From assembly GCF_025949695.1 (NCBI RefSeq), contig NZ_JAPDFL010000001.1:248001-312000 (forward strand): a stretch of DNA of 64,000 nt, read 5' to 3'. Shown piece by piece: positions 14,621-40,719 of the stretch (position 1 is its first letter; each line of letters starts with the position of its first letter). The notes beneath the pieces are model-generated. The model was not told the origin of the DNA. It saw nothing but the letters and a program-made list of their open reading frames with translations, and did not search any database. A program made the translations under genes and the position numbers. This stretch comes from Pararhodobacter zhoushanensis (lineage in GTDB: Bacteria > Pseudomonadota > Alphaproteobacteria > Rhodobacterales > Rhodobacteraceae).

Positions 14621-14654
14621 TTGCGTTGCGTCCCCATTGTTGCACTATAAAGCA
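14621..14654 (+). promoter_or_regulatory. Putative bclA promoter overlapped by BoxR-like site
   Basis: TTGCGT at 14621-14626 and TATAAA at 14646-14651 make a sigma-70-like pair with a 19-base spacer (18 if CTATAA is used). The -10 lies inside TGCA-CTATAA-AGCA (14641-14654), a site like those before boxC and boxR. Repressor bound here would occlude the -10 element. Spacing is slightly long, so the -35 call is tentative. Confidence 0.5.
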
Positions 14655-17082: not shown

Positions 17083-17510
17083 CGCCTTTGCCGCCAGAAC
17101 CCCACCATCCGGGCCGCAATGCGCGCCCGGATGAAGCGTTTTTCGCAGGCTTGATTGCCGGGCTGGACGGTTTGGCGGCGGAGGCTCTGGCGCAATCCCC
17201 GGCGTTTCTGGCCGGGTTCGAGGCTTTCGCGCGGCGCTACTACTGGGAGGCGCACGAGTTCTGGGAACCCGTCTGGGCCGCCCTGCCCCCGGCCAGCGCC
17301 GAGCGGCATTTGCTGCGCGGGTTGATCCAGCTGGCGAACGCCGGGCTCAAGCGCCGGATGGGGCGGCCGGGCGCGGCGGTGCGCATCCTCGCGCTCGCGG
17401 ACGCGGCGCTGCGCGAGGCCTTCAGCGGTGGCCGCGAATCGCGGATGGGGCTGAGCGCAGGGCGGGTGTCGGCTCTGCGAGAGCAGGTTCTGACGGAATG
17501 CGCATTATAA
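17079..17510 (+). CDS. DUF309 domain-containing protein
   Basis: A 143-residue helical protein with the DUF309 core FARRYYWEAHEFWEPVWAALP, ERHLLRGLIQLANAGLKRRMG and a long final helix. The conserved His/Glu of YWEAHEFWEPVW is the family hallmark. Function is unknown. It is translationally coupled to the hydrolase by an ATGA overlap and is the last gene before a separate promoter region for boxC. Confidence 0.82.
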   Translation: MTPLPPEPHHPGRNARPDEAFFAGLIAGLDGLAAEALAQSPAFLAGFEAFARRYYWEAHEFWEPVWAALPPASAERHLLRGLIQLANAGLKRRMGRPGAAVRILALADAALREAFSGGRESRMGLSAGRVSALREQVLTECAL

Positions 17511-17524
17511 TGCATTTATCCGCA
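17502..17524. promoter_or_regulatory. Palindrome and degenerate BoxR-like site upstream of boxC
   Basis: GCATTATAATGC (17502-17513) is a perfect 12-base palindrome overlapping the DUF309 stop. It runs into TGCA-TTTATC-CGCA (17511-17524), one mismatch from TGCA-N6-TGCA. It lies 70-90 bases upstream of the boxC promoter and could be a second repressor-binding site. Confidence 0.4.
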
Positions 17525-17576: not shown

Positions 17577-17608
17577 TTTACGCAGCACCATACAGGCACT
17601 ATTGTGCA
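17577..17608 (+). promoter_or_regulatory. Putative boxC promoter with BoxR operator over the -10
   Basis: TTTACG (17577-17582) and TATTGT (17600-17605) are spaced by 17 bases. The -10 is embedded in GGCA-CTATTG-TGCA (17595-17608), which shares CTAT after the first half-site with the bclA, boxR and TRAP sites. This gives boxC and the genes after it a start of their own. Confidence 0.55.
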
Positions 17609-17652: not shown

Positions 17653-19312
17653 GTGACCCAGCGAGATCGACTTCCAGACGGACCCGTCGCGCTATCGCCA
17701 TTGGCGCGTGGAGTATGACGGCGCGGTGGCGAACCTGTTCATGGACGTGGACGAAAACGCCGGTCTGTTCGACGGCTATCAGCTCAAGCTGAACAGCTAC
17801 GATCTGGGCGTCGATATCGAACTGGCCGATGTGGTGCAGCGGATGCGGTTCGAACACCCCGAGGTCAAGGTCGTGGTGATGCGCTCGGCCAAGGACAAGG
17901 TGTTCTGCGCCGGGGCCAATATCCGCATGCTGGGCGGGGCGAGCCATGCGCATAAGGTGAACTTCTGCAAGTTCACCAACGAAACGCGCAACACCTTCGA
18001 GGCCGCCGAAGCCGACTCTGGCCAGAAATATATTGCCGCGGTCAAGGGGGCCTGCGCGGGCGGCGGCTATGAGCTGGCGCTGGCGTGCAACCATATCATG
18101 CTGACCGACGACAGTGCCTCGGCTGTGTCGCTGCCCGAAGTGCCGCTCTTGGCCGTGCTGCCGGGCACCGGCGGGCTGACCCGCGTGACCGACAAGCGCA
18201 AGGTGCGTCGCGATCTGGCCGATGTGTTCTGCACGCTGGAAGAGGGCGTGAAGGGCAAGCGGGCTAAAGACTGGCGTCTGGTGGATGAGGTCATCGCCAA
18301 TTCCAAATTCGACGAGACGGTGGCCGAACGGGCGCGCGAATTCGCGGCGGCCTCGGACAAGGCGACGGGCACGGGCATCAGCCTGACCCCGCTGAACCGG
18401 AGTTTCGCCGAGGACGGCTCGATCCACTATTCGCTGGTCGAGGTTGCGGTGGATGCCGAGGGGCGCAAGGCCACGATCACGCTGAACGGCCCGGATCAGG
18501 ACGTGCCGGCCTCGGTCGAGGCGCTGCATGCGCAGGGCGATCAGGGCTGGATGCTGCGTCTGGCGCGGGAATTCGACGATGCGATCCTGCAATTGCGTCT
18601 CAACGAGATGGAGCTGGGGCTGGTCGTGTTCCGCACACAAGGCGACGCGCAGGCCGTGCTGGCGCATGAGGCCTTCCTGCTGGCCAACAAGAGCGACTGG
18701 CTGGTCAACGAGATCCTGACCTACTGGAAGCGCGTGCTCAAGCGCGTGGATATGACCGCGCGCTCGCTGGTGGCGCTGGTCGAGAACGGCTCATGCTTTG
18801 CCGGGTTCCTGGCGGAACTGCTCTGGGCCTCGGACCGCGCCTATATGATGGAAGGCGAGTTCGACGGCGACAACCGCCCGGTGGCGACGGTCACGCTGTC
18901 GCAAGCCAACTTCGGCCCCTTCCCGATGGGTAACGACCTGACCCGCCTGCAAACCCGCTTTCTGGGCGAGCCGGAAACGGTGGACACGCTGCAGGGCAAA
19001 ATCGGCGAGGCGCTGGAAAGCGACGCGGCGATGGAGCTGGGTCTGGTGACCGAGGCCTATGACGACATCGACTGGGAAGACGAGATCCGCATCTTCATGG
19101 AAGAGCGCGCCTCGTTCAGCCCCGACGCGATGACCGGCATGGAAGCCAACCTGCGGTTTGCCGGGCCGGAAACGATGGAAACCCGGATCTTTGGCCGCCT
19201 GACCGCCTGGCAGAACTGGATCTTCATCCGGCCGAACGCGACCGGCCCCGATGGCGCGCTGCAGCGCTATGGCTCGGGCGTGCGCGGCGATTACAACATG
19301 CAACGCGTGTGA
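17653..19312 (+). CDS. boxC: Benzoyl-CoA-dihydrodiol lyase BoxC (frame broken near the start)
   Basis: A crotonase-superfamily protein with two enoyl-CoA-hydratase-like halves. It opens the ring of the benzoyl-CoA epoxide/dihydrodiol to 3,4-dehydroadipyl-CoA semialdehyde and formate. Family blocks are LKLNSYDLGVDIELADVVQRMRFEHPEV (split by me), FCAGANIRMLGG, VNFCKFTNETRN and GGGYELALACN. The expected N-terminus IDFQTDPSRYRHW lies upstream of the first in-frame start (GTG 17708). GGAGG at 17641-17645 and a GTG at 17653 are ideally spaced, but this GTG is one base out of frame: one extra C in CCC at 17657-17659. Removing it gives a 552-residue protein of normal family size. Confidence 0.88.
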
Positions 19313-19394: not shown

Positions 19395-19426
19395 TTCCCC
19401 GTGCCCAGCATTCCGTGGAGGAACCC

Positions 19427-20878
19427 ATGATCGACCTCATCAATGTCAGCTATGACACGCAGATCCCCAATAACGTCGGCCTGTCCAACGACAAGCGCGT
19501 CCTGAAGGCGCTGGAGAAATGGCACCCCGGTTACATCAACTGGTGGAATGACCTGATCCCGCAGCAGTTCCAGAAATCGGATGTCTACCTGCGCACGGCC
19601 GTGTCGGTCGACCCCAAGGGTTGGGCCAAGTTCGACTATGTGAAGATGCCCGAATACCGCTGGGGCATTCTGCTGGCCCCCGAGGTCGAGGGCCGCGTGA
19701 TCCCCTGTGGCGAACACGCCGGTCAGCCCGCGTGGCAGGAAGTGCCGGGCGAATACCGCAACATGCTCAAGCGGATGATCGTCATTCAGGGCGATACCGA
19801 GCCGGGCTCGGTCGAGCAGCAGCGCTTCCTCGGCCTGACCGCGCCGTCGCTCTATGACCTGCGCAACCTGTTTCAGGTCAACGTGGAAGAGGGCCGTCAC
19901 CTCTGGGCGATGGTGTATCTCTTGCAGAAATACTTCGGCAAGGATGGCCGCGAAGAGGCCGACGATCTGCTGATCCGTTCGTCGGGTTCGGAAGAAGCCC
20001 CGCGCATGCTGGGTGCCTTCAACGAGGAAACGCCCGACTGGCTGTCGTTCTTCATGTTCACCTATTTCACCGACCGCGACGGCAAGATGCAGCTGGAAAG
20101 CCTGGCGCAATCGGGCTTTGACCCGCTCAGCCGGACCTGCCGCTTCATGCTGACCGAAGAAGCGCACCACATGTTCGTCGGCGAGACCGGCGTGGGCCGC
20201 ACGATCGAGCGCACCTGTCAGGTGATGAAAGAGCACGGTATCGACGATCCCTACGAGATCGAGAAAATCCGCGCGCTGGGGGTGATCGACCTGCCGACGA
20301 TCCAGAAAAAGCTGAACTTGCACTACACGCTGTCGCTGGATCTGTTCGGTCAGGAAGTCTCGACCAACGCCGCCAACGCCTTCAACTCGGGCATCAAGGG
20401 GCGCTACATGGAGCACCGCCTGACCGATGACCACAAGCTACACAACGATACCTATCCGGTGTGGAATTTTGAGGACGGTCAGCTGGTGCGCAAGGATGTG
20501 CCGGCCCTGACCGCGATCAACATGCGCCTGCGCGACGATTACACCCGCGACGCGGCGGGCGGCATCGGGCGCTGGAACAAGATCATCGAGAAGAACGGCG
20601 TCCAGTTCGAGCTGAAACTGCCGCACGAAGCCTTCCACCGCCAGATCGGCGTCTTCGCGGGCAAGCCCTTTGCCCCCGATGGATCGCTGCTGACCGGCGC
20701 GGAGTACGACGCACGCCGCAACGAATGGCTGCCGACCCGCGCGGATGGTGACTTCATCCAGTCGCTGATGAAACCGGTCACCGAGCCGGGGCAATACGCC
20801 AGCTGGATCTCGGCCCCGAAAGTCGGGATCGACAACAAGCCCGGTGACTTTGAGTATGTGAAGCTCTACATGGCGTGA
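19427..20878 (+). CDS. boxB: Benzoyl-CoA 2,3-epoxidase, oxygenase component BoxB
   Basis: A 483-residue class I di-iron monooxygenase that epoxidises the ring of benzoyl-CoA using O2 and electrons from BoxA. Di-iron ligands are evident: EEGRH (Glu155 with His158) and TEEAHH (Glu244 with Glu245, His247 and His248), the paired ExxH-type carboxylate/His motifs on helices. FNSGIKGRYMEHR and the N-terminal WHPGYINWWNDLIPQQFQ are family blocks. The start is ATG 19427 behind GGAGGAA; a GTG four codons earlier overlaps that ribosome site. It is flanked on both sides by the GTAG hairpin repeats. Confidence 0.95.
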   Translation: MIDLINVSYDTQIPNNVGLSNDKRVLKALEKWHPGYINWWNDLIPQQFQKSDVYLRTAVSVDPKGWAKFDYVKMPEYRWGILLAPEVEGRVIPCGEHAGQPAWQEVPGEYRNMLKRMIVIQGDTEPGSVEQQRFLGLTAPSLYDLRNLFQVNVEEGRHLWAMVYLLQKYFGKDGREEADDLLIRSSGSEEAPRMLGAFNEETPDWLSFFMFTYFTDRDGKMQLESLAQSGFDPLSRTCRFMLTEEAHHMFVGETGVGRTIERTCQVMKEHGIDDPYEIEKIRALGVIDLPTIQKKLNLHYTLSLDLFGQEVSTNAANAFNSGIKGRYMEHRLTDDHKLHNDTYPVWNFEDGQLVRKDVPALTAINMRLRDDYTRDAAGGIGRWNKIIEKNGVQFELKLPHEAFHRQIGVFAGKPFAPDGSLLTGAEYDARRNEWLPTRADGDFIQSLMKPVTEPGQYASWISAPKVGIDNKPGDFEYVKLYMA

Positions 20879-20969: not shown

Positions 20970-21125
20970 ATGCCCGCCACCCGCACCGCTCTGCCCCGCC
21001 CCGCCGCGCCGGCCAAGCGCCTGACCTGTCTCGACTGCCCCGATTGCACCGGCCCCTGCTGGAGCCGCTTCGAGCTGGCCTTCCTTCCCGAATCGGTGCT
21101 GCACCCCCGGACCCCGCGCGCATGA
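20970..21125 (+). CDS. Small Cys-rich protein between boxB and boxA
   Basis: A 51-residue protein. GGAGGACCC stands 4 bases before the ATG, and the stop overlaps the boxA ATG (ATGA), so it has real translation signals and is coupled to boxA. The middle carries LTCLDCPDCTGPCWSRFEL: four cysteines in C-x2-C-x2-C-x3-C spacing followed by Trp, then LAFLPESVL. The spacing is ferredoxin-like (4Fe-4S) but could equally bind zinc. The N-terminus is Pro/Ala/Arg-rich. I do not recognise the family. Its place between the oxygenase and reductase genes suggests an accessory role in the epoxidase. Confidence 0.72.
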   Translation: MPATRTALPRPAAPAKRLTCLDCPDCTGPCWSRFELAFLPESVLHPRTPRA

Positions 21126-22315
21126 ACAAGCCCCTCAAACAGCACCTGATCGACCCGGAAATCTGCATCCGCTGCTACACCTGCGAGATGACCTGCCCGG
21201 TCGAGGCGATCACCCATGACGACAACAACGTCGTCGTCGATGCCGAGAAATGCGATTTCTGCATGGATTGTATCCCGGTCTGTCCGACCGGCTCGATTGA
21301 TGAGTGGCGCGTGGTCAACACGCCCTATTCGCTGGAAGAGCAGTTCAGCTGGGAAGACCTGCCCGCGCAGGGCGACGTCGGCACCTCTGCCGCCCAAGGC
21401 GGCAGCGTCGAGGCGCTGGATGACGCCATGGAGGCCCTGCTGGCCGAGGCCCACAAGGGCGCAGGCGGCAAATCCAAAGCCCCGGCCAGTGCCGCCAAGC
21501 CGACGGTCAACATGTATAACCTCGGCAAACCCGCCATTGCCAAGGTGCAGGGCAACTACCGTCTGACCAGCACCGAGAGCGGCTCGGATGTGCGCCACCT
21601 GATCCTTGAGTTCGGCGGCCAGCCCTTCCCGGTGCTTGAAGGCCAGTCGATCGGCATCATCCCGCCTGGGCTGGACGCCAACGGCAAGCCCCACCTGCCC
21701 CGGCTCTATTCCGTCTCAAGCCCGCGCGACGGCGAGCGGCCGAATTTCAACAACCTCTCGCTGACCGTGAAGCGTGAGGAACAAGGCCTGTGCTCGAATT
21801 ACGTCTGCGATCTGAAGATCGGCGATGAGGTCAGGGTCACCGGCCCCTTCGGCGCGACCTTCCTGATGCCCGAAGACCCCGCCGCGCGCCTGCTTATGGT
21901 CTGCACCGGCACCGGTGCTGCGCCGTTCCGTGGCTTCACCATGCGCCGCCAACGCGCCGCTGCCGGGGCGAGTGGCGATATGGTCATGTTCTTTGGCGCC
22001 CGCGCGCCCGACAGCCTGCCCTATTTCGGCCCGCTCAACAAAGTGCCGGACCGTCTGCTGAAAAAGCATCTGGTGTTCAGCCGCATTCCCGGCGTGGAAA
22101 AGGAATACGTGCAAGACCGCATGATGGTCGAACAGGAGGTTGTCGCCAATCTGCTGGCCGATCCCAAGACCCATATCTACATCTGCGGTCTGCGCGGCAT
22201 GGAGCAGGGCGTGGAACTGGCGTTCAAGAACATCGCCGAAAGCACCGGCCTGGGCTGGGAGGCGACCCGCGACGCCATGCGCGACGAGGGACGGTACCAC
22301 GTCGAGACCTACTGA
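21122..22315 (+). CDS. boxA: Benzoyl-CoA 2,3-epoxidase, reductase component BoxA
   Basis: A 397-residue iron-sulfur flavoprotein that passes electrons from NADPH to BoxB. The N-terminus has two 4Fe-4S ferredoxin motifs, CIRCYTCEMTCPVEAI (from residue 15) and CDFCMDCIPVCPTGSI (from residue 43). A low-complexity Ala/Lys linker follows near 100-125. The rest is a ferredoxin-NADP reductase module with the FAD motif RLYSVSSPR, the nucleotide motif VCTGTGAAPFRGF and CGLRGMEQGV, ending in YHVETY. The start at 21122 overlaps the Cys-rich gene; 26 upstream in-frame codons are that gene's shadow. TGATG overlap with the thioesterase. Confidence 0.95.
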   Translation: MNKPLKQHLIDPEICIRCYTCEMTCPVEAITHDDNNVVVDAEKCDFCMDCIPVCPTGSIDEWRVVNTPYSLEEQFSWEDLPAQGDVGTSAAQGGSVEALDDAMEALLAEAHKGAGGKSKAPASAAKPTVNMYNLGKPAIAKVQGNYRLTSTESGSDVRHLILEFGGQPFPVLEGQSIGIIPPGLDANGKPHLPRLYSVSSPRDGERPNFNNLSLTVKREEQGLCSNYVCDLKIGDEVRVTGPFGATFLMPEDPAARLLMVCTGTGAAPFRGFTMRRQRAAAGASGDMVMFFGARAPDSLPYFGPLNKVPDRLLKKHLVFSRIPGVEKEYVQDRMMVEQEVVANLLADPKTHIYICGLRGMEQGVELAFKNIAESTGLGWEATRDAMRDEGRYHVETY

Positions 22316-22791
22316 TGCCTTACAGCCATGAGATCCGCGTCAGCTGGGGTGACTGCGACCCGGCCAGGATCGCCTATACCGCGCGCATTCCGGCATGGGC
22401 GCTGGAGGCGATCAACGGCTGGTGGGAGCATCATTTCGGCGGCGGCTGGTTCCAGATGGAGATGGACCACAATTTCGGCACGCCCTTCGTTCACATGAGC
22501 CTCGACTTCCGCCATCCGATCACGCCGCGCCACCGGCTGATCTGCGCTGTCGCACCGACCCGGCTGGGTGACACCTCGGTCGCGTGGCGGGTGATCGGGC
22601 GACAGGACGGGGCGGTGTGCTTTGAGGGCAGCTTCGTCTGCGTGTTCACCATCGCCGACCAGTTCCGCAAAGCCCCGCCCCCGAGGCCGTGCGCGCCCTG
22701 GTGCTCAAGCATCTGGAACCCCCGGCAGAATAGTGCAATCGCCCGCGCGTTTCGCAGGATGCCTATTGTTCGGCGGCAGGGCATCCCCTAA
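22315..22791 (+). CDS. Acyl-CoA thioesterase (4-hydroxybenzoyl-CoA thioesterase family), C-terminus frameshifted
   Basis: A hotdog-fold protein with the Asp-containing motif SWGDCDPARIAYTARIPAW (catalytic Asp near residue 14), then FVHMSLDFRHPIT. It probably clears stalled benzoyl-CoA or related thioesters and recycles CoA. After TIADQFRKAPPP the frame goes wrong: as read it runs on to 22791 with a non-homologous tail. One extra C in the C5 run at 22678-22682 would continue EAVRALVLKHLEPPAE and stop at 22731-22733, giving about 139 residues, typical for the family. The reading beyond 22733 would also overlap the boxR promoter. Confidence 0.85.
   Translation: MPYSHEIRVSWGDCDPARIAYTARIPAWALEAINGWWEHHFGGGWFQMEMDHNFGTPFVHMSLDFRHPITPRHRLICAVAPTRLGDTSVAWRVIGRQDGAVCFEGSFVCVFTIADQFRKAPPPRPCAPWCSSIWNPRQNSAIARAFRRMPIVRRQGIP
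22724..22737. promoter_or_regulatory. Putative BoxR operator, upstream of boxR (site 1)
   Basis: GGCA-GAATAG-TGCA; on the other strand it reads TGCA-CTATTC-TGCC, sharing TGCA-CTAT with the other sites. It lies at the end of the thioesterase gene, about 103 bases before the boxR ATG. Confidence 0.5.
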
Positions 22792-22796
22792 GCTTG

Positions 22797-22810
22797 TGCA
22801 CTATTGTTCC
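22797..22810. promoter_or_regulatory. Putative BoxR operator, upstream of boxR (site 2)
   Basis: TGCA-CTATTG-TTCC: one strong half-site and the CTATTG core shared exactly with the boxC site. TATTGT (22802-22807) could be the -10 of a boxR promoter 30 bases before its ATG. Together with site 1 it suggests autoregulation. Confidence 0.5.
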
Positions 22811-22839: not shown

Positions 22840-23757
22840 ATGTCAGAGATCACGAACTTTCGCGGTGAAACCCTTGCCCCCGATTCCGCCACCCGGGACG
22901 AAGCCGCCGTGCGCGGGCTGATCCTGCGTGTCGGCGAACGGGTGCGCAAGGCGCGCGAGCTCAAGGGCATCCCGCGCCGGGTGCTGTCCGAGGTTTCAGG
23001 CGTCTCGCCGCGTTATCTGGCGCTTCTCGAAGCGGGGGACGGCAATATCTCCATCGGGCTATTGCAGCGCGTCGCCGATGCGCTGGACCACCGCATCGAA
23101 TGGCTGGTCGGCGAGGATGACCCCTGGACCTCGGACGCGATGCGGATGAGCGAGCTCTATCGCGGTGCCTCGTCCGAGGTGCGCGCGAAGGTGCTCGACC
23201 TGCTCGCCCCCCAGCCCGAAGCCAGCGCCCGCCGCCACCGCATCGCGCTGATCGGGCTGCGCGGCGCGGGCAAATCCACGCTGGGCGCGCTGGCCGGCGA
23301 GACGCTGGGCATCCCCTTTGTCGAACTCAACCGCGAGATCGAGGATCAGGCAGGCATGCCGGTCAACGAGGTGATGGCCTTCTACGGACAGGAAGGCTAC
23401 CGCCGCCTTGAAGCGCAGGCGATGAACCGCATCGTCGCCACGCATGACACGATGATTCTGGCCGTCGCGGGCGGCATCGTGTCCGAGCCCGAGACGTATA
23501 AGACCCTGCTGGCGCATTTTCACACCGTTTGGGTCAAGGCCAGCCCGGCCGAGCATATGGCGCGGGTGCGCGGGCAAGGCGACATGCGGCCGATGGCGGG
23601 AAATCCTGAAGCGATGGACCAGCTGAAATTCATCCTGACCAGCCGCGAGGCGCTTTATGATCAGGCGCGCGCCAAGCTGGACACCACCGGGCGCACGCTG
23701 GCCCAGTCGCAGGCCGATCTGCTGGCCCTGATCCGCGAGCGCGGGTTTCTGGATTGA
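22840..23757 (+). CDS. boxR: BoxR-type benzoyl-CoA-responsive transcriptional regulator
   Basis: A 305-residue repressor with an N-terminal Cro/C1-type helix-turn-helix (VRKARELKGIPRRVLSEVSG, then SPRYLALLEAGDGNISIGL) and a C-terminal shikimate-kinase-like domain carrying Walker A GLRGAGKST at residues 139-147. This two-domain layout defines BzdR/BoxR, which use the kinase-like domain to bind benzoyl-CoA. The start is ATG 22840 (MSEITNFRGE); a TTG 12 codons upstream lies in the operator and is unlikely. A TTGA overlap joins it to the dehydrogenase gene. Confidence 0.93.
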   Translation: MSEITNFRGETLAPDSATRDEAAVRGLILRVGERVRKARELKGIPRRVLSEVSGVSPRYLALLEAGDGNISIGLLQRVADALDHRIEWLVGEDDPWTSDAMRMSELYRGASSEVRAKVLDLLAPQPEASARRHRIALIGLRGAGKSTLGALAGETLGIPFVELNREIEDQAGMPVNEVMAFYGQEGYRRLEAQAMNRIVATHDTMILAVAGGIVSEPETYKTLLAHFHTVWVKASPAEHMARVRGQGDMRPMAGNPEAMDQLKFILTSREALYDQARAKLDTTGRTLAQSQADLLALIRERGFLD

Positions 23758-32128: not shown

Positions 32129-33917
32129 TCACACCACAATCGTCGCCGCGTCGCCGTTATCGTAGAGCCGCGCCACCAGCCCCGCGCGCCGCAGCAACAG
32201 CTTGCGGAAGTTGAGGTTGCCCTTGGCGGTGATCTCGCCCTCGGCCATCGAGGGCGGCTCGGCCATCACCATCGCCCGGCGGATCGCCTGCGCCGAGCCC
32301 TCGGCCGCGTCCGGTTTCAGCCGCCGCGCGATCTCGGCCGCCTGCGCGACGATCAGCGCACCACCGGCCTCCTCGGCCCCCTTGGCCAGACCCGGCAACG
32401 GGATGATCAGCACACCGACCTCGGACCGGTCGGCCCCCGTGATCACCACGTCCTGCGCCAGACCCTTGAGCTTGGCCAGCACCTCAAGCCGCAGCCCCGC
32501 AGCGCGGACCCATGTCCCGGTGATCAACTTGAACTCCTCGGAAATCCGCCCGTCGAATTTCAAGCCCTTGTTCATATCCCCCGGCTCGACGAATTTCATC
32601 GCGTCGCCGGTGATGAAATAGCCTTCGTCGTCAAAGGCTTCGGCGGTCTTTTCGGCGTCGTGCAGATAGCCCGGCGTGATCGTGTCGCCCTTGACGCGGA
32701 CCTCGAACCTTGTGTCATCCTCCGCCGGAACCAGCTTGACCGTCACGCCCGGCAGCGGCACGCCGATGATGCCGGACTGGTGGGTGAACTCGTGCTGCAA
32801 CAGCGCGGCGGGAGCGGTTTCGGTCAGGCCCCAGCTGGAGTTGAACAGCGGCATCTCGCCGCGCACTTCGCGCGCCATGGCTTCCAGATCAGCCCAGATG
32901 TCCTGTGGCAGCGACGCCCCGGCATAGAACAGCATGTCGAGGTTCTGGAAATACTGCCGCTTGAGCGTCTCGTCCTGCTGCATCGCGTCGCGCAGCACGG
33001 CAAACCCGACCGGCACGTTGAACGCGATACTGGGCGAGACCATGCGCAGGTTGTCCAGCGTGTGCTGCGCCAGCGCGGGTGTCGGCTTGCCGTTGTCGAT
33101 ATAGAACGTGCCGCCGTTCGACAGTACCAGATTGAAGTTATGCGAGCCGCCGAACACATGGTTCCACGGCAGCCAGTCGAGCAGCACCAGCGGCTTGTCG
33201 GCCACAAAGGGCAGCGCGGCTTTCAACTGCGCCTGATTGGTGGTCATCATCCGCTGCGTGGTCAGCACCCCCTTGGGGTGCGAGGTCGAGCCCGAGGTCA
33301 TCAGGTATTTCGCCACCGTATCGGGCGTGACCGCTGCGTTCAGCGCCGAGACATCGCCGCGCCCTTTGAGCAGCGAGATCGAAGAGTGTTTCGCCCGCAG
33401 CGCCGCCCATGCTCACCAGTTTCTCGACGCCCTCGAACACCGGCAGCGCCAGCGCCGTGCCGTAGCGCGCGGCATCATCGGCAAAGACAATGCGCGGTTG
33501 GATCACGCTGGCGATGCGTTCCAGCACCGGATGCGCGCCGGGGATCAGCGCGTATTGCTCGGCCACCGGCACGGTCGGTACGCCGATATACTGCGCGGCC
33601 AGCGTCAGCAGGCCATGGTCCACGCCGTTGCCGCTAACGATCAGGATCGGCGTCTGTGCCCCCATCCCGCGTTCAGCCAGCGAGGCGGCGATGGCGCGCA
33701 CCATCTCCAGCGCCTGCGCATAGGTAACCTCGCGCCAGCCTGCGCCCGAGCGTTCGGCCAGAAACACCCGGTCGGGCGCGGCGGCGGCCCAGTCCACCAG
33801 CCAGTCGGTCGTGCGGCAAGCAATCGGGCCCAGCGCCAGCCCGCTGGTCAGCAGGATCGAACCGTCCGGGCGGTCTTGCCGGCGCGCGTCATGGGCGCGG
33901 TATTTCTGATGGGTCAT
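32129..33917 (-). pseudogene. fcs: Feruloyl-CoA synthase, interrupted by a single-base frameshift
   Basis: Both halves belong to one AMP-forming ligase that activates ferulate and related hydroxycinnamates. The upstream half (33917 to about 33375) has the N-terminus DGSILLTSGLALGPIACRTTDWL and ILIVSGNGVDHGLLTLAAQ. The downstream half has TPDTVAKYLMTSGSTSHPKGV (split across the P-loop), YFITGDAMKFVEPGD and DFKL-like EEFKLITGTWVR. After TLFDL the frame shifts: an extra base near 33371-33380 turns LLKGRGDVSALNAAVTP out of frame. Joined, the protein is about 595 residues, normal for the family. Whether this is a real mutation or an assembly error cannot be decided here. Confidence 0.85.
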
Positions 33918-34356
33918 CGGATGTCCTCCCGTTCAATTCGATCTGCCGCAGGGCGCGGTGCAAGGCGGCGACCTCCTCGTCGCTCAAACCCCGCGTCATG
34001 CGTGTGTCGTGCCCGTTGACCGCCGCAGTGGCCTGTTCGCACAGGCGCTTTCCCTTGGGCGTGGCGGTCAGTTCATAGGCGCGCCGGTCGTCCGGCGCGC
34101 GGATGCGTGTGACCAGCTCGGCCTCTTCCAGATCATCGAGGATCAGCACCAGATTGGGCCGTTCGATCATCAGAATCTCGGCCAGCCGCGTCTGGCGCAG
34201 GCCCGGATTGTCGCGGATGACAACCAGGGTCGAATAGGTCGTCATCCGCAGGCCAAACCCCGCCAGCACGATGCCCAGATCGCCCAGCACCACATTGAGC
34301 GCGCGTTTCATGTCATAGCCGATGAAGGCGCGCAGGGTGCGGTCAGACGAAGCCAT
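33889..34356 (-). CDS. MarR family transcriptional regulator of the hydroxycinnamate cluster
   Basis: A 155-residue winged-helix regulator: helix-turn-helix NPGLRQTRLAEILMIERPNLVLILDDLEEAELVTR (split by me) and wing motif RAPDDRRAYELTATPKGK. It sits between the SDR and fcs genes, 3 bases after the SDR stop and overlapping the fcs start by 29 bases. MarR proteins of hydroxycinnamate clusters are typically released by the CoA thioester made by the ligase. The CGTTA/TAACG palindrome upstream of the SDR gene is a plausible operator. Confidence 0.85.
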   Translation of the reverse strand: MASSDRTLRAFIGYDMKRALNVVLGDLGIVLAGFGLRMTTYSTLVVIRDNPGLRQTRLAEILMIERPNLVLILDDLEEAELVTRIRAPDDRRAYELTATPKGKRLCEQATAAVNGHDTRMTRGLSDEEVAALHRALRQIELNGRTSDDPSEIPRP

Positions 34357-34359
34357 ATC

Positions 34360-35124
34360 TTAGCGCGGGGGCAGACGGGTGGCGCCGTCCAGACGGATCG
34401 TGGTGCCGTTCAGATAGGGGTTCTCGACAATCTGCGCGACCATCAGCCCGTATTCCGACGGATCGCCCAGCCGGTCAGGAAAGGGCACATTGGCGACGAT
34501 CTTGGCGGTGGTTTCGGGCGGCAGGCTTTCCATCATCGGCGTGTTGAACAGCCCCGGCGCAATGGCCATCACCCGGATGCCCGACTGCGCCAGTTCGCGC
34601 GCGGCGGGCAGGCACATGCTGGCGATCCCGCCCTTGGACGCGGCATAGGCCGCCTGACCCACCTGCCCGTCCTGCCACGCGGCCGAGGCGGTGTTGATCA
34701 CCACGCCACGCTCGCCGCCCTCAAGCGGCTCTTGCGCCTGCATGCCCTTCACGGCGTGCGACATGACAATGTAGCTGCCGATCAGGTTGACCCGGATCAC
34801 GCGCTCGAACAGGTCGATGGACATCTTGCCCTCGCGCCCGACGATCCGCGCGGCAAGGCCGATCCCGGCGCAGTTGACGGCGACGCGGGGCATGCCGCCC
34901 CAGGCATCCTGCACCGTGGCAAAGGCAGCCTCGACCGCAGCGGCGTCGCCGACATCGGCCTGCACGCCCAGACCGCCGATGCTGGCGGCGACCGCGCCGG
35001 CCTTGGCGCCATCATAATCAAGCACCACGACCTTGGCGCCGCGCCCGGCCAGAAGGCGGGCTGTCGCCTCGCCCAGCCCGCTGCCGCCACCGGTGACCAG
35101 TGCGATCTGTCCCTCAAGGCGCAT
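34360..35124 (-). CDS. SDR family 3-hydroxyacyl-CoA dehydrogenase (HSD17B10-like)
   Basis: A 254-residue short-chain dehydrogenase. The cofactor motif TGGGSGLG lies near residue 11, an Asp after strand 2 (VVVLDYDGAK) favours NAD, NCAGIG follows near 90, and the catalytic Ser, Tyr and Lys are in NTASAAWQDGQVGQAAYAASKGG (split by me). The pattern QVGQAAYAASKGGI and APGLFNTPMM is that of type-2 3-hydroxyacyl-CoA dehydrogenases. With fcs downstream it probably oxidises the 3-hydroxy-phenylpropionyl-CoA intermediate of side-chain shortening. No hydratase or thiolase gene is next to it. Confidence 0.85.
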   Translation of the reverse strand: MRLEGQIALVTGGGSGLGEATARLLAGRGAKVVVLDYDGAKAGAVAASIGGLGVQADVGDAAAVEAAFATVQDAWGGMPRVAVNCAGIGLAARIVGREGKMSIDLFERVIRVNLIGSYIVMSHAVKGMQAQEPLEGGERGVVINTASAAWQDGQVGQAAYAASKGGIASMCLPAARELAQSGIRVMAIAPGLFNTPMMESLPPETTAKIVANVPFPDRLGDPSEYGLMVAQIVENPYLNGTTIRLDGATRLPPR

Positions 35125-35156: not shown

Positions 35157-35173
35157 CGTTACATGACATAACG
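35157..35173. promoter_or_regulatory. Putative MarR operator before the SDR-marR-fcs operon
   Basis: CGTTA-CATGACA-TAACG, inverted arms of 5 bases around a 7-base centre, located 33-49 bases upstream of the SDR start. It is the only palindrome of note in the 134-base gap between the TRAP dctM stop and the SDR gene. Confidence 0.5.
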
Positions 35174-35258: not shown

Positions 35259-36572
35259 TCACGGTATCAAGAACAGCGTGATCGCCGGGAAGGCCACCAG
35301 AATCGCCACCCGCACCATGTCCGACAGCACAAAGAACGAGACCGCCTTGTAGGTCGAGGTCATCGGCGTCGCGCGGTCCATGGCGTTGATGATGAACAGG
35401 TTCATCCCCACGGGCGGTGTTATCAACCCGGTCTCGACCACGATCAGCACCAGAATGCCGAACCAGATGGCGACGTGTTCCTGCGACATGCCGAAATCGA
35501 GCGCCATCATCATCGGGAAGAAGATCGGCACGGTCAGCAGGATCATCGACAGGCTGTCCATGACACAGCCCAGCGCCAGATAGATCAGCAAGATCAGCAC
35601 CAGCACCATCACCGGGGCCAGCCCAAGGCCGAGCACCCATTCGCTGAGCGCCTGCGGCACCCGCGTGCGGGCCAGAAAGCCGTTATAGAAGGCCGCGCCG
35701 AAGACGATGAAGAAGATCATCGCGGTCGAGCGGGCGGTCGAGGTGAAGCTTTCCAGCAGCGTTCTGAAGTTCAGCCCCCGGTTGGCCAGCGCGATCAACC
35801 CCGTGCCCAGCGCGCCGACAGCCGCGCCTTCGGTCGGAGTGAAGACGCCGCCATAGATGCCGCCGACCACCGCCAGAAACACCACCAGTACCGGCCAGAC
35901 CCCCAGCAGCAGGCGGAAGCGGTCGGGCCAGTTGATCCGCTCGGCGGTGCCGGCGCGGTTGGGATAGAGGCGCACATAGATCGAGATGACGATCATGTAG
36001 CCGATCGCGGCCAGAATGCCCGGCGCGAAGGCGGCGAGGAACAGCTTGGCGATGTTCTGCTCGGCAAGGATCGCATAGATCACCAGCACGACCGAGGGCG
36101 GGATCAGGATGCCCAGCGTGCCGCCTGCGGCCAGCAGGGCGGTCGAGATCCCGCCGTCATAGCCAAAGCGCTTGAGTTCGGGCAGGGCGACGCGGCCCAT
36201 GGTCGCCGCCGTCGCCAGCGACGAGCCGCAAATCGCGCCGAAGCCCGCGCAGGACGCCACGGCAGCAATGCCGACGCCGCCCTTTCGGTGCCCGACAAAG
36301 GCCGCCGCGGCCTTGAACAGCGCCGAGGACATGCCGCCGATGGTGGCGAAATACCCCATCAGCAGAAACATCGGCACCACGGCCAGCGCCTCACTGGCAA
36401 AGGTCGAATAGGCCGCATTCTTGAGTTGTGCCAAGGGGATGCGGCTTGAGCCGTCAATGATCCAGTAACCGCAGAAGCCGGTCACGAACATCGACAAGCC
36501 GATGGGTACGCGGACAAAGATCAGCCCCAGCAGGACCGGAAAGGACAGGATACCGATTGCGAGGTTGCTCAA
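35259..36572 (-). CDS. TRAP transporter large permease (DctM family), second system
   Basis: A 437-residue membrane protein with about 12 helices. DctM blocks: GIAAVASCAGFGAICGSSLATAATMGRVALPELKRFGYD (split by me), LGILIPPSVVLVIYAI, YGGVFTPTEGAAVGAL and GLITPPVGMNLFIINAM. The start is TTG at 36572 (LSNLAIGILSFPVL), whose TTGA overlaps the dctQ stop; the frame is open far upstream but that part is a dctQ shadow. It belongs to the operon that begins at 38347. Confidence 0.9.
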   Translation of the reverse strand: MSNLAIGILSFPVLLGLIFVRVPIGLSMFVTGFCGYWIIDGSSRIPLAQLKNAAYSTFASEALAVVPMFLLMGYFATIGGMSSALFKAAAAFVGHRKGGVGIAAVASCAGFGAICGSSLATAATMGRVALPELKRFGYDGGISTALLAAGGTLGILIPPSVVLVIYAILAEQNIAKLFLAAFAPGILAAIGYMIVISIYVRLYPNRAGTAERINWPDRFRLLLGVWPVLVVFLAVVGGIYGGVFTPTEGAAVGALGTGLIALANRGLNFRTLLESFTSTARSTAMIFFIVFGAAFYNGFLARTRVPQALSEWVLGLGLAPVMVLVLILLIYLALGCVMDSLSMILLTVPIFFPMMMALDFGMSQEHVAIWFGILVLIVVETGLITPPVGMNLFIINAMDRATPMTSTYKAVSFFVLSDMVRVAILVAFPAITLFLIP

Positions 36573-37162
36573 TGGTCTGCTCCGGCGGCTGAGAGGATGG
36601 TGTGTCTGGTGACCGCCTCGGCCACGCGAACAAGCGCCACATAGACGCCAATGGCGGCGGTGATCACGGCGGGCACAAGGGCCGCGGCGTAGTTCCACCA
36701 CAGGGGATATTGCAGCAGGAACGTCGTCGACCGGCGGCGGGCAAGGGTGTTCATCCCGTCGTAGAGCTGCACCGCAATCAGAACCAGAACGCCCGCGAAA
36801 AGGATTTCGATGAACACTTGCAGCCAGCGGCGCTGGTTGTCGCTCAGGCCCGAGGTGAAGACATCCACCGTGGCGTGCCCGGCGGTGATCTGACACCAGC
36901 CCAGAAAGCAGAACACGCTGACAGCCAGCCCTGCGACAAGGAATTCATAATCGCCGAAGATCGGCCCGACCCCGGCATCCAGCAGCGACCGCGCGACATC
37001 GGGCATGGTTTCCTGCATCCAGGCAGAATGCAGCACATCCGACGCTTCGCGGCCCAGAATGGACAGGCAGAGCATCAGTACCAGCGCTGTCAGCAAGGCA
37101 CCGCCGACAACTGCCATGGTCCAGGCAAGCCCGTAAAAGATCTTGTGGATCGTCTTGAACAT
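36569..37162 (-). CDS. TRAP transporter small permease (DctQ family), second system
   Basis: A 197-residue protein with four membrane segments: AWTMAVVGGALLTALVLML, EFLVAGLAVSVFCFLGWCQ, VFIEILFAGVLVLIAVQLY and NYAAALVPAVITAAIGVYVAL. It is somewhat longer than usual DctQ proteins, with an extra polar loop near residues 40-65. The start is ATG 37162 behind AGAGGGACA. The frame is open to 37279, but that part overlaps the intercistronic hairpin. Confidence 0.87.
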   Translation of the reverse strand: MFKTIHKIFYGLAWTMAVVGGALLTALVLMLCLSILGREASDVLHSAWMQETMPDVARSLLDAGVGPIFGDYEFLVAGLAVSVFCFLGWCQITAGHATVDVFTSGLSDNQRRWLQVFIEILFAGVLVLIAVQLYDGMNTLARRRSTTFLLQYPLWWNYAAALVPAVITAAIGVYVALVRVAEAVTRHTILSAAGADH

Positions 37163-37258
37163 TGTCCCTCTTCCCTGGATGACCGGTTGATCCGGCGTCT
37201 TGGGGCCGGCGCGCGGGTCAGACTGCGCTGTCCACGGACCGTTGTCTTGTTTGTGAGA

Positions 37259-37309: not shown

Positions 37310-38347
37310 TTAGTTCGCAGCCTCGTAGTCAGACATCAGCTGGCGGGCTTCGTCGATCAGGGCCTGACCGTCGATGCCGCGACCGTTCATGTCTTCAACC
37401 CAGGTTGCATACAGCGGCTGGACCACCTCCACCCATTCCTGCGCATCGGCTTCGGACACGGTGACGATGTTGTTGCCCAGATCGACAGCGACCTGACGCG
37501 CCGGACCGTCAGCATCGGCTTGCGTGCCGCCCGCGAAGATCGAGAACTCGAGCCCCGAGTTGTTGTCGATGACTTCCTGCAGATCGGCGGGCAGCGAATC
37601 GTAGGTGTCCTGGTTCATTGCGAACGAGAACGTCAGCACATACAGCGCCGGACCTTCGATTTCGGTGTGGTTGTGCACCAGTTCGGACACGTGCAGCGCC
37701 GAGGTCACTTCCCACGGGATCGTCGTGCCGTCGATGACGCCGCGCGACAGGGCCTCGGGCACGCCCGACACTGGCAGACCGACGGCTTCGGCACCCACCA
37801 GCGCCAGCAGATCGTTCACGCCACGCGACCCGCCGCGGATTTTCATCCCTTGCAGATCGGACGGGTGCACGATCGGGCGGTTGGTGTGGAACATGCCCGG
37901 GCCGTGAACCCACATGGCCAGCATGTGCACGCCGGCGAAATCTTCCTGCATGTGCTCTTCATACATCGTCCACAGCGCGGACGAGGCAGCGCGGGCATCC
38001 GACACCATGAACGGCAGTTCGAACACTTCGGTCTGCGGGAAGCGGCCCGGCGTGTAGCCGTTCACCGTCCAGATGATGTCGGCAATGCCGTCCATCGCCT
38101 GATCCATCAGTTCCGGCGGGGTGCCGCCCAGCGCCATCGAGGCGTAACGCTCGATCTCGATCCGGCCGCCCGAGTCGCGCTCGACGTTGTCAGCCCAGAC
38201 ATCCAGCACGTCCCGCGGGACGTTGGCCTGCGCCGGCAGGAACTGGTGCATGCGCAGGGTGAATTCCTGCGCCGTCGCAGCCCCGGTGGTCAGCGCCGCA
38301 ATTGCGGTCGCCCCCATGAGGCCGAGAAGCGTGGTACGTTTCGTCAT
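37310..38347 (-). CDS. TRAP transporter substrate-binding protein (DctP family), second system
   Basis: A 345-residue periplasmic protein with a signal peptide (LLGLMGATAIAALTTGAATAQEF). DctP signature: LQGMKIRGGSRGVNDLLALVGAEAVGLPVSGVPEALSRGVIDGT (split by me), and Arg in KIRGGS is the expected carboxylate contact. GGGAGGAGAT precedes the ATG. Tandem TGCA half-sites before the gene suggest BoxR control, and the genes downstream make a feruloyl-CoA synthase. Benzoate or a hydroxycinnamate is therefore the likely cargo; the sequence alone cannot say which. Confidence 0.9.
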   Translation of the reverse strand: MTKRTTLLGLMGATAIAALTTGAATAQEFTLRMHQFLPAQANVPRDVLDVWADNVERDSGGRIEIERYASMALGGTPPELMDQAMDGIADIIWTVNGYTPGRFPQTEVFELPFMVSDARAASSALWTMYEEHMQEDFAGVHMLAMWVHGPGMFHTNRPIVHPSDLQGMKIRGGSRGVNDLLALVGAEAVGLPVSGVPEALSRGVIDGTTIPWEVTSALHVSELVHNHTEIEGPALYVLTFSFAMNQDTYDSLPADLQEVIDNNSGLEFSIFAGGTQADADGPARQVAVDLGNNIVTVSEADAQEWVEVVQPLYATWVEDMNGRGIDGQALIDEARQLMSDYEAAN

Positions 38348-38373
38348 GTGATCTCCTCCCTAGAGTCTCAGAT

Positions 38374-38397
38374 GGCACTATCTTGCATCAGATTGCA
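38374..38397. promoter_or_regulatory. Putative BoxR operator before the second TRAP operon
   Basis: GGCA-N6-TGCA-N6-TGCA: three half-sites at 10-base periodicity (38374-38377, 38384-38387, 38394-38397). The first spacer is CTATCT, sharing CTAT with the boxC and boxR sites; the second pair is a perfect TGCA-TCAGAT-TGCA. It lies 27-50 bases upstream of the dctP start. Confidence 0.6.
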
Positions 38398-38412
38398 CAA
38401 GAAGCATTTTGT

Positions 38413-38430
38413 TGCCAATACTTGTTGGCA
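38413..38430. promoter_or_regulatory. Inverted repeat upstream of second TRAP operon
   Basis: TGCCAA-TACTTG-TTGGCA, a perfect 6-base inverted repeat 66-83 bases before dctP. It is a candidate binding site for a second regulator, type unknown. Confidence 0.4.
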
Positions 38431-38475
38431 CAAGTCGCCGTTTCAGGCGAATACTAATTTCGCTCCCGGGCATAA

Positions 38476-38499
38476 GTTTGTGCTATTTCCTGCACAAAC
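38476..38499. terminator. Inverted repeat just after the maleylpyruvate isomerase gene
   Basis: GTTTGTGC (38476-38483) and GCACAAAC (38492-38499) around an 8-base centre, flanked further out by CCCGGG on each side. It lies 12-35 bases after the isomerase stop on the - strand. It could be a terminator without T-tract or an operator for the downstream TRAP genes. Confidence 0.4.
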
Positions 38500-38510
38500 C
38501 CGGGACTTGG

Positions 38511-39155
38511 TTACTCGGCATCCGGCTGCTGCGACGGGTGCGCCGCCGCAAAGGCAGGATGCGTATCGCAGGCGGCGGCAATCTCGGTAAGGCGGGGCAT
38601 GGCGCTGGTATCAACCTTGAAGCGTTTGGCCGAAAAAAACTGAGGAATCAGATAGATCTCGGCCATGCCCGGCGCGTCGCCAAAGGCAAAGCGGGTGGGC
38701 GGGCGTTTGGCCAGAAGGGCCTCGCAACTGGCCAGACCCTCGCCGATCCAGCGCTGGCACCAGGCCTCTTTGCCGTCTGGCCCCTGGCCATAAGCGGTTT
38801 CAAGATACTGCAAGGTCCGCAGGTTCTGCAGCGGATGGATTTCGCAGGCGATCACCGCACAGAAAGCCCGCACCGCCGCCCGCTCTGCCGCATCCTGCGG
38901 CAACAGGCGCGGCTCGGGATGCGTTTCGTCCAGCCATTCCAGAATCGCGGGTGATTGGGTCAGCACCAGCCCGTCCACCTCAAGCGTCGGCACCAGCCCT
39001 TGCGGGTTCAGCGCACGGTATGCTGCCGACTTCTGCTGCCCGCCATCCTTGACCAGATGCACCGGTACGAACGCGGGCGTCAGGCCCTTGAGGTTGAAGG
39101 CAATGCGGCAACGATAGCTGGAAGAGCTGCGGAAATAGCCGTGAAACCGCATCAT
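38511..39155 (-). CDS. nagL: Maleylpyruvate/maleylacetoacetate isomerase (zeta-class glutathione transferase)
   Basis: A 214-residue glutathione transferase. The zeta-class active-site motif is present as SSSSYRCRIAFNLKGL (from residue about 9), followed by LNPQGLVPTLEVDGLVLTQS and the C-terminal helical domain with GDAPGMAEIYLIPQFFSAKRF (split by me). It isomerises maleylpyruvate to fumarylpyruvate using glutathione; maleylacetoacetate is the alternative. Pairing with a fumarylpyruvate hydrolase by ATGA overlap favours the gentisate route. Start is ATG 39155 or the adjacent ATG 39152. Confidence 0.82.
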   Translation of the reverse strand: MMRFHGYFRSSSSYRCRIAFNLKGLTPAFVPVHLVKDGGQQKSAAYRALNPQGLVPTLEVDGLVLTQSPAILEWLDETHPEPRLLPQDAAERAAVRAFCAVIACEIHPLQNLRTLQYLETAYGQGPDGKEAWCQRWIGEGLASCEALLAKRPPTRFAFGDAPGMAEIYLIPQFFSAKRFKVDTSAMPRLTEIAAACDTHPAFAAAHPSQQPDAE

Positions 39156-39850
39156 TCGGCGGCCCCCAGCGTCAGGCTGATCGGCTCGAGCCCGTCGATG
39201 CCACCGGTGATCGCATCCCCGGCCACCACCGGGCCGACGCCTGCGGGCGTGCCGGTCAGGATGATGTCGCCCGGTTGCAGGTGATAGTAATGCGACAGGT
39301 GGCTGATGACCTCGGCCGGCGACCAGACCATATCGTCCAGCGTGGCGTCCTGCCGGGTGGTGCCGTTGACCTCCAGATGGATGCGCCGTCCGGCCAGCGC
39401 GAAGCCTGCCGCCGGGGTGAGCGTGGTCAGCACTGCCGAACCCTCGACATCCTTGCCCAGATCCCACGGGCGGCGGTTGTCCTTGCCGTCTTGCTGGCGG
39501 TCACGCCGCGTCATGTCCAGCCCGCAGCCATAGGCGAAGATCGCGGCCTCGGCCTGCGCCAGATCGGCCTTGAACACGGCGTCACCGACAGCGACGACCA
39601 GCTCCATCTCATAGTGGAAATCCGAGGTGCCCGGCGGATAGGGCCGTGTTTCGCCCGACAGACACACCGCCGAGACCGCCGATTTGGTGAAATACCACGG
39701 CGCCTCACGGTCCACGGTGCCGCCCATTTCGGCGGCGTGCGCCTCATAGTTGCGGCCCACGCAGAAGATGCGCGACACGGGATATTCGGCCGCCTGCCCC
39801 AGCACCTTGAGGCTGCGCACGGGCGCGGGTGTAAACAGATACTGGGTCAT
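39152..39850 (-). CDS. nagK: Fumarylpyruvate hydrolase (FAH family)
   Basis: A 232-residue fumarylacetoacetate-hydrolase-fold protein. Metal- and substrate-binding blocks: IFCVGRNYEAHAAEMG, WYFTKSAVSAVC, FHYEMELVVAVG, YGCGLDMTRRDRQ and PGDIILTGTPAGVGPV. This is the short FAH type that splits fumarylpyruvate to fumarate and pyruvate. The last two steps of gentisate degradation are thus encoded, but no gentisate 1,2-dioxygenase is in the window. The gene is divergent from a MarR regulator. Confidence 0.87.
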   Translation of the reverse strand: MTQYLFTPAPVRSLKVLGQAAEYPVSRIFCVGRNYEAHAAEMGGTVDREAPWYFTKSAVSAVCLSGETRPYPPGTSDFHYEMELVVAVGDAVFKADLAQAEAAIFAYGCGLDMTRRDRQQDGKDNRRPWDLGKDVEGSAVLTTLTPAAGFALAGRRIHLEVNGTTRQDATLDDMVWSPAEVISHLSHYYHLQPGDIILTGTPAGVGPVVAGDAITGGIDGLEPISLTLGAAE

Positions 39851-40113: not shown

Positions 40114-40719
40114 ATGTCCGTGATCCAAACCATGCCGGGCCATCTGATCCGGCGCCTGAACCAAATATCCGTGTCGATCTTCCAGGCCCGCATCGCCGAG
40201 CTGGGGCTGGATTTGACGCCGGTGCAATTTGCCGCGCTGGCGTCGCTGCGCGACAATCCCGGCATTGATCAGGCGACGCTGGCCGGGTTGATTGCGCATG
40301 ACCGCGTGACGATGGGCGGCGTGATCGATCGGCTGCAGGCCAAGGGGCTGGTTCTGCGCATGGTGAACAGCAAGGATCGCCGCGCTCGGCAGGTATCGCT
40401 GACCCTTGAGGGGCGCGCGCTGATCGACCGGTTGTTGCCCGAGATCGACGCGATTCAGACCGACATCCTGTGCGGGCTGAACCCTGAGGAACAGGTGCAG
40501 TTCACCGCCCTGGCGACCAAGGCGATGCTGGCCGCCAACGAGCGCAGCCGCGCGCCGATGCGGCCCCGGGATGAGGCCCCCCACGATCAGGACAAGGCGA
40601 TCCGGCGATCCAGATTGAGTGACGCAAGAAACCGCTGGTCATGGCTGACCACCACCAGCGCACCGTCAAAGCTGGTCAGCGCGACCTCAAGCGCCTCGGT
40701 TGCGTCCAGATCCAGATGA
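40114..40719 (+). CDS. MarR family regulator (gentisate-branch), 3' end uncertain
   Basis: A MarR winged-helix protein: LRDNPGIDQATLAGLIAHDR is the recognition region, GGVIDRLQAKGLVLR follows, and SKDRRARQVSLTLEGRAL is the wing. The real domain ends near residue 150. As read, the frame runs on to residue 201, overlapping the ABC-F gene by 133 bases with a low-complexity tail. A one-base change in the C6 run at 40577-40582 would end it after about 160-170 residues, so the 3' end may be a further indel. It probably represses nagKL. Confidence 0.8.
   Translation: MSVIQTMPGHLIRRLNQISVSIFQARIAELGLDLTPVQFAALASLRDNPGIDQATLAGLIAHDRVTMGGVIDRLQAKGLVLRMVNSKDRRARQVSLTLEGRALIDRLLPEIDAIQTDILCGLNPEEQVQFTALATKAMLAANERSRAPMRPRDEAPHDQDKAIRRSRLSDARNRWSWLTTTSAPSKLVSATSSASVASRSR

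Follow-up and report, generated by a model that had tools for sequence, protein, structure and literature searches.

A predicted BoxR operator array upstream of a TarP-type TRAP transporter operon in Pararhodobacter zhoushanensis and related Rhodobacterales

Is a TRAP transporter encoded about 15 kb from boxR controlled together with the box genes for benzoate breakdown, and which aromatic acids would it bring into the cell? The question arises from a stretch of 64,000 nt of Pararhodobacter zhoushanensis (assembly GCF_025949695.1, contig NZ_JAPDFL010000001.1, positions 248,001-312,000, forward strand), hereafter the window, whose own numbering is used throughout. An earlier note on this DNA had described a triplet of half-sites before the TRAP gene dctP and had assigned the transporter to the benzoate regulon, possibly as its uptake system.

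The box cluster lies on the plus strand of the window. It comprises bclA for benzoate-CoA ligase (14720..16270; TIGR02262, 713.9 bits, cut-off 375), a hydrolase gene with weak matches only (16267-17082), boxC (17708..19312; TIGR03222, 926 bits, cut-off 712), boxB (19415..20878; TIGR03225, 908 bits, cut-off 499), boxA (21044..22315; TIGR03224, 529 bits, cut-off 459) and boxR (22840..23757, start approximate; PRK08154/NF006015, 382 bits, cut-off 204). Two ORFs of 143 and 158 aa in the cluster were without a profile match. The boxR product has the architecture by which regulators of BoxR regulons are recognized, an XRE-type helix-turn-helix fused to a shikimate-kinase-like domain, and solved helix-turn-helix chains and shikimate kinases match the respective parts.

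The TRAP operon is encoded on the minus strand, where the three components of a TarP-type TRAP system lie together: dctP for a TarP-type solute-binding protein (37310..38347; PF03480), dctQ for the small membrane subunit (36569..37165, start approximate; PF04290) and dctM for the large membrane subunit (35259..36506, start approximate; PF06808). The operon runs on into hydroxycinnamate-type genes, in keeping with the neighborhood described previously. They encode an SDR (34360..35124, minus strand), most closely related among solved structures to type II (HSD10-like) 3-hydroxyacyl-CoA dehydrogenases, a MarR-family regulator (33889..34356, minus strand; MarR-family model matches, all under cut-offs) and a feruloyl-CoA-synthetase-like (fcs-like) acyl-CoA synthetase (32129..33917, minus strand). 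The last is divided between two frames (33138-33917 and 32129-33316), both with PRK12582/NF009232, a model named acyl-CoA synthetase, as the top match; the feruloyl-CoA label is one that we take to apply to it. No single open frame spans this gene in the window, whereas it is open across its length in the near-identical locus L001 and in L002, which points to a sequencing error or a recent pseudogene in the window. In the box cluster, the expected 5' end of boxC (GTG at 17653; 17653-17708, plus strand), compared with the 5' region of L135, does not share the reading frame of the remaining gene, possibly through a second small assembly indel. Upstream of dctP, beyond a gap of 163 nt, are genes for a maleylacetoacetate/maleylpyruvate isomerase-like GST (38511..39155, minus strand, start approximate; TIGR01262, 267 bits, cut-off 171) and a fumarylacetoacetate hydrolase (FAH) family protein (39152..39850, minus strand; PF01557), giving the minus-strand order FAH hydrolase, GST, gap, dctP, dctQ, dctM, SDR, marR and fcs-like ligase. 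Neither a thiolase nor a hydratase was recognized in the window's cluster. An ABC-F family ATPase gene (40590-42155, minus strand; top NCBIfam match NF000355, 337 bits, below the cut-off of 380) lies near a periplasmic-binding-protein ABC transporter gene at 42370 (plus strand). The window has a single dctP; L002-L006, L008-L010 and L019 have a tandem dctP pair before dctQM.

The gap between the GST gene and dctP contains the half-sites in question. The triplet GGCA-N6-TGCA-N6-TGCA reported there is present (GGCACTATCTTGCATCAGATTGCA, 38374-38397); it precedes the minus-strand gene dctP, 26 nt from the start codon that ends at 38347. It is only part of a longer block, a predicted BoxR operator array of five half-sites (38374..38416, minus strand) that read on the plus strand GGCA at 38374, TGCA at 38384, TGCA at 38394, AGCA at 38403 and TGCC at 38413. 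Their spacing of 10, 10, 9 and 10 nt follows roughly a 10-bp register, and dctP is thus preceded by multiple operator units, as is characteristic of BoxR-regulon genes. When the window is aligned with 11 relatives (for L009, the region upstream of the second dctP was taken), conservation covers the block but does not extend into the sequence upstream; in L019 the dctP-proximal end of the array is gone. A scan of 38300-38560 found no sigma-70-like promoter against which the operator could be positioned.

The rule by which the triplet had been recognized, TGCA-N6-TGCA, proved too loose: it has 2 matches in the window against 1.98 expected, at least as many occur in 59 of 100 shuffles, and it was rejected as a diagnostic motif. 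The signal is carried by a longer palindrome, ATGCACTATAGTGCAT, described for BoxR/BzdR by phylogenetic footprinting in Betaproteobacteria in the available part of PMC6449761. The published core used here, TGCACTATAGTGCA (14 bases), is a betaproteobacterial consensus from the same part of that source, applied to a host belonging to Rhodobacterales. Allowing three mismatches, the core has six sites in the window, every one upstream of bclA, boxC, boxR or dctP: TGCACTATAAAGCA before bclA (14641..14654, plus strand, 2 mismatches), CGCATTATAATGCA (17501..17514, plus strand) and GGCACTATTGTGCA (17595..17608, plus strand, 2 mismatches) before boxC, TGCACTATTCTGCC (22724..22737, minus strand) and TGCACTATTGTTCC (22797..22810, plus strand) before boxR, and the core palindrome of the dctP array (38374-38387; 11/14, i.e. 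3 mismatches). The sites at 17501 and 22724 overlap the 3' ends of preceding listed ORFs. Shuffled windows contained 0.83 sites on average, and none of 100 reached six. The companion sites listed earlier (14590, 14641, 17595, 22724 and 22797) all exist, but 14590 (TGCAAAAAACTGCA), despite the right half-site spacing, falls outside the three-mismatch set; 17501 was absent from that list. The CTAT described as shared is real and has a ready counterpart, since GCACTAT is common to most sites and equals one arm of the published palindrome.

The earlier note had proposed a whole-genome scan, which was run with the published core over the 4.65 Mb of the host genome. It set the window apart: 6 of 43 matches lie inside it, and the density outside predicts 0.52 per 64 kb (Poisson probability of at least six, 1.7e-5). 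The genome-wide total itself stands against 30 for a reversed control pattern. The 38374 site alone is unremarkable on this scale, since 36 of the 37 core matches outside the window also have three mismatches, many of them presumably by chance, and the case for an operator before dctP therefore rests on clustering, position and conservation. Eight matches to GCAYTATNNTGC outside the window were considered as regulon members; all are covered by some ORF of at least 80 aa, and none was accepted. Two of the 37 outside matches were examined, C1:690288 (L082) and C1:1395687 (L084), and both match GCAYTATNNTGC; the latter, the only GCAYTATNNTGC place with short covering frames (98 and 110 aa), lies between a 418-aa gpsA-like ORF and a galU-like ORF (both read by eye). 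The sites at G000:C1:367253, 1707482 and 3191585 (L081, L085 and L088) share an identical sequence and a similar ORF context at three places in the genome, and so look like a repeated mobile element.

Conservation was assessed in the best 80 of 541 dctP loci of relatives, found by scanning genome contigs with DctP; these loci are phylogenetically related, and the counts over them are non-independent because of shared ancestry. The core (at least 11/14, i.e. up to three mismatches) occurred in the 250 nt preceding the first dctP in 38/80 loci and in 2/3132 control windows of the same loci. The control windows, which leave out the promoter regions of dctP, bclA, boxC and boxR, are mostly coding and have a G+C content above that of promoters (63% for the loci, 53% for the upstream regions); dinucleotide-shuffled copies of these upstream regions meet this bias, and the core appeared in 26/4000 of them. 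By position around dctP, the count fell from 38/80 in the bin from -250 to 0 to 7/77 in the next outer bin and to at most 3/76 in each bin further out to -3000, and was 0/80 in each of the four bins from 0 to 1000. The IUPAC motif KGCAYTATARTGCM was found before dctP in 40/80 of these loci; as both it and a MarR palindrome, GTTATGNNNCATAAC, were composed after the dctP upstream regions had been viewed, their enrichment there is partly circular, and the published core (38/80) is the independent test.

A strict form of the site, GCAYTATARTGC, occurs 27 times in the best 80 of 541 loci: 15 times before dctP (in L061 and L071 at 472-474 nt upstream), 10 times before boxC, twice before bclA and nowhere else. 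A scan of 48 whole genomes of relatives gave 39 occurrences, spread over 22 genomes; the reversed control gave 10. By coordinates, 13 of the 39 lie at dctP, 25 at bclA/boxC and one elsewhere, and none of the query genes matched at this sole exception (G024:C1:775214, L144). The core is absent from the 250-nt window in 42/80 loci, including L011, L020, L045 and L080, in which the TRAP genes stand beside box genes; L061 and L071 have their more distant strict site in its place.

The TRAP and box genes are also often linked. In 43/80 loci (best 80 of 541), bclA, boxC or boxB (at least 50% identity) follows the first dctP within 9.5 kb downstream on the same strand, a count that leaves out L069 (25% match only) and is taken over downstream lengths that are unequal among loci. 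An fcs-like gene is also present in 32 of the 43 and absent within 9.5 kb in the other 11. In L022, L037, L042 and L066, dctP stands directly before bclA-lactonase-boxCBA-boxR. The lone dctP of these four loci (around 10000-11400) has no adjoining dctQM, and related DctM genes occur elsewhere in all four genomes, from which it is possible that such lone binding proteins share one membrane unit.

What the transporter may carry is suggested by its solved relatives. The closest among the matches listed, at 72% identity to DctP, is the characterized TarP_Sse (7nr2/7nra; Sse we take to be Sagittula stellata), solved in complex with coumarate and with cinnamate. Among the loci nearest to TarP_Sse are clusters of Mameliella and Antarctobacter with the order dctP-Q-M-SDR-fcs, then boxR. 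Other solved relatives are marine proteins titled as specific for aromatic-acid ligands (5i5p, 5i7i, 5iga and 5izz, about 41%) and a Rhodoferax protein (5im2, 44%; ligand missing from its shortened title), and TarP_Rhp (7nqg), presumably a Rhodopseudomonas protein, is 25% identical. The best reading of this evidence is that the system would be an aromatic-acid importer for cinnamate or hydroxycinnamates, possibly also for benzoate.

The reading of the earlier note, in which the TRAP system would be a dedicated importer and the main benzoate uptake system of the BoxR regulon, draws on the 11/80 loci (best 80 of 541) in which bclA/box genes come after the TRAP genes and the 9.5 kb downstream contain no fcs-like gene. 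Benzoate as cargo stays possible because of these contexts, and the four loci with dctP directly before bclA and the aromatic-acid-specific proteins among the next solved relatives, with 5im2, point the same way. Against a dedicated benzoate importer stand the coumarate and cinnamate in the crystals of the closest solved relative and the continuation of the window's operon into SDR, marR and fcs-like genes. In addition, the available part of PMC3610893 reports that R. palustris TarP binds cinnamates and not 4-hydroxybenzoate, to be read with the caveat that TarP_Rhp shares only 25% identity with DctP. We regard a dedicated benzoate importer as rather unlikely.

The MarR-family gene in the operon offers a local regulator in place of BoxR. 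The palindrome GTTATGNNNCATAAC (at least 13/15) was found before dctP in 21/80 loci overall (best 80 of 541; partly circular), and its presence there tracks marR, with 19/29 loci with the gene against 1/43 without it (p 2.8e-9; 8/80 loci with less than 4.5 kb downstream were left out). Before sdr, it reached at least 12/15 in 13/14 loci that have both sdr and marR, as against 0/14 that have sdr only. In the window, the predicted MarR operator is located just upstream of the SDR gene (GTTATGTCATGTAAC in minus-strand reading, 35158..35172; 13/15 to GTTATGNNNCATAAC), and the palindrome scores 13 or 14/15 before SDR in the window, L001, L005, L006, L008 and L009 and 12/15 in L002 and L003. In all of these it scores lower before dctP than before SDR, although it reaches 12/15 before dctP too in L005 and L006; L067, L073, L074 and L078 have it at 13/15 or more before both genes. 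This arrangement, in which the higher-scoring palindrome stands before SDR, suggests that in the window's lineage BoxR may serve uptake and MarR the side-chain genes. Control of the TRAP operon by the adjacent MarR regulator with incidental BoxR-like sequences would account for the co-occurrence with marR, but not for BoxR-like sites before dctP that are conserved and position-specific, nor for the placement of the palindrome before SDR in the window's lineage. Six further loci (L012, L021, L032, L041, L057 and L070) have both the MarR palindrome and the BoxR-like motif before dctP, which favors a pair of regulators over a single one, and we consider MarR-only control very improbable.

If BoxR acts at dctP, the site and the regulator should occur together across genomes, and they do. 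A BoxR orthologue (E < 1e-80) is present in 45 of 49 genomes of relatives, and just one of the 45 has more than a single copy; the 49 genomes come from 50 of the 80 loci with L001 left out, and the strict-site scan took 48, with the genome of L017 left out. The Mameliella genome of L018 has two BoxR copies (L122 and L123), of which one shares its contig with the TRAP-fcs cluster and the other lies near bclA/boxC (L142). In a family sample of 198 genomes, DctP (E ≤ 1e-120) was found in 68 and BoxR (E ≤ 1e-60) in 46. With one dctP taken for each of these 68 genomes, the window's own included, the core was located before dctP in 20/39 genomes with BoxR and in 1/29 without it (p 1.3e-5). As 21 of the 68 dctP genes fall below 64% identity and are perhaps not orthologues, the comparison was also made at a DctP identity of at least 64%, giving 19/33 with BoxR and 1/14 without (p 0.0014); by the IUPAC motif it gave 19/39 and 2/29. 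The two BoxR-negative genomes concerned, G051 (completeness 100%) and G145 (77%), have the IUPAC motif at 12/14 or better before dctP, and G145 also has the published core; G051 is the same contig as L017, and its record is titled Enemella evansiae, yet it is placed in the host's family. Recognition of the TRAP array by another XRE-type regulator that shares the half-site, an idea fed by these two genomes, by the many XRE regulators and by weak helix-turn-helix-only BoxR matches in the 49 searched genomes, is the least probable reading and highly doubtful, as one palindrome marks both box and TRAP promoters, BoxR orthologues are nearly always single-copy, and the site tracks BoxR presence.

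The assignment to the benzoate regulon made in the earlier note thus stands as regards membership of the BoxR regulon, on the comparative evidence (38/80 upstream regions, 20/39 against 1/29 genomes and box linkage in 43/80 loci), and control of the TRAP operon by BoxR is strongly predicted from these sequence comparisons. As regards benzoate as the cargo, it meets a closest solved relative whose structures were obtained with coumarate and cinnamate, and finds compatible contexts in 11/80 loci.

Both halves of this arrangement have known counterparts: aromatic-acid TRAP transporters (PMC3610893, PMC12442348) and BoxR regulons with ABC-type transporters or BenK (PMC6449761, PMC10803450) are already described in the available parts of these papers. 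The betaproteobacterial BoxR/BzdR regulons likewise have a regulator of XRE plus shikimate-kinase-like type and the palindrome ATGCACTATAGTGCAT, and their sites are almost always multiple and include transporters, as found here; those transporters are ABC-type or BenK in the available part of PMC6449761, where TRAP is unmentioned, whereas here a TRAP operon lies about 15 kb away in a member of Rhodobacterales. TarPQM of R. palustris is also a TRAP system for aromatic carboxylates and adjoins coumarate genes; BoxR control, predicted for the operon here, is unmentioned in the available part of PMC3610893. The TRAP system of Roseovarius nubinhibens, upregulated on 4-hydroxybenzoate, is another roseobacter aromatic-acid TRAP beside catabolic genes, which are in that case pca (beta-ketoadipate) genes 159 bp downstream and not box genes (PMC12442348, available part). 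Putative transporters beside benzoate-CoA ligase/box clusters in PMC10803450 similarly place uptake genes by bclA and boxR; they are of ABC type, with TRAP unmentioned in the available part, in contrast to the TRAP system here. In the open-licence PMC literature, no report of a TRAP importer within a BoxR regulon was found.

BzdR and BoxR of Azoarcus, as the earlier note states, respond to benzoyl-CoA, which is the presumed effector here as well. In the mechanism that we propose, BoxR encoded about 15 kb away would bind the operator array at the dctPQM promoter through half-sites that recur about once per helical turn and lie on the same face of the helix. It would repress not only bclA, boxCBA and boxR itself but also the TRAP operon, until benzoyl-CoA releases the repressor. 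The TRAP system would import carboxylated aromatics, most likely cinnamate and hydroxycinnamates and possibly benzoate, and those of them that are funneled to benzoyl-CoA would induce the importer that brought them in. Benzoate would reach benzoyl-CoA through BclA, and cinnamate through a putative beta-oxidative route of ligase, hydratase, HSD10-like dehydrogenase and thiolase, while in the window's lineage the SDR-MarR-ligase part would answer to its own MarR palindrome. Aromatic-acid uptake and benzoate breakdown are thereby probably placed under one regulator. As a whole, the best explanation is an aromatic-acid importer under a BoxR repression that benzoyl-CoA would relieve, and it is one in which we have considerable confidence. 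A wider generalization is offered more tentatively and is perhaps somewhat less likely to hold than to fail: BoxR of Rhodobacterales may be the shared sensor of an aromatic-acid uptake-and-funneling network, in which benzoyl-CoA, from benzoate or from cinnamate-type beta-oxidation, derepresses a TarP-type importer, MarR gates the side-chain genes, and the operators are joined or split by lineage.

If the proposed control is true, the box pathway of Rhodobacterales, the aerobic benzoyl-CoA route, would gain a regulated TRAP uptake system, and the import of lignin-type cinnamates would be tied to this pathway through one metabolite. A sharp definition of the operator could also aid the annotation of substrates in a common TRAP family.
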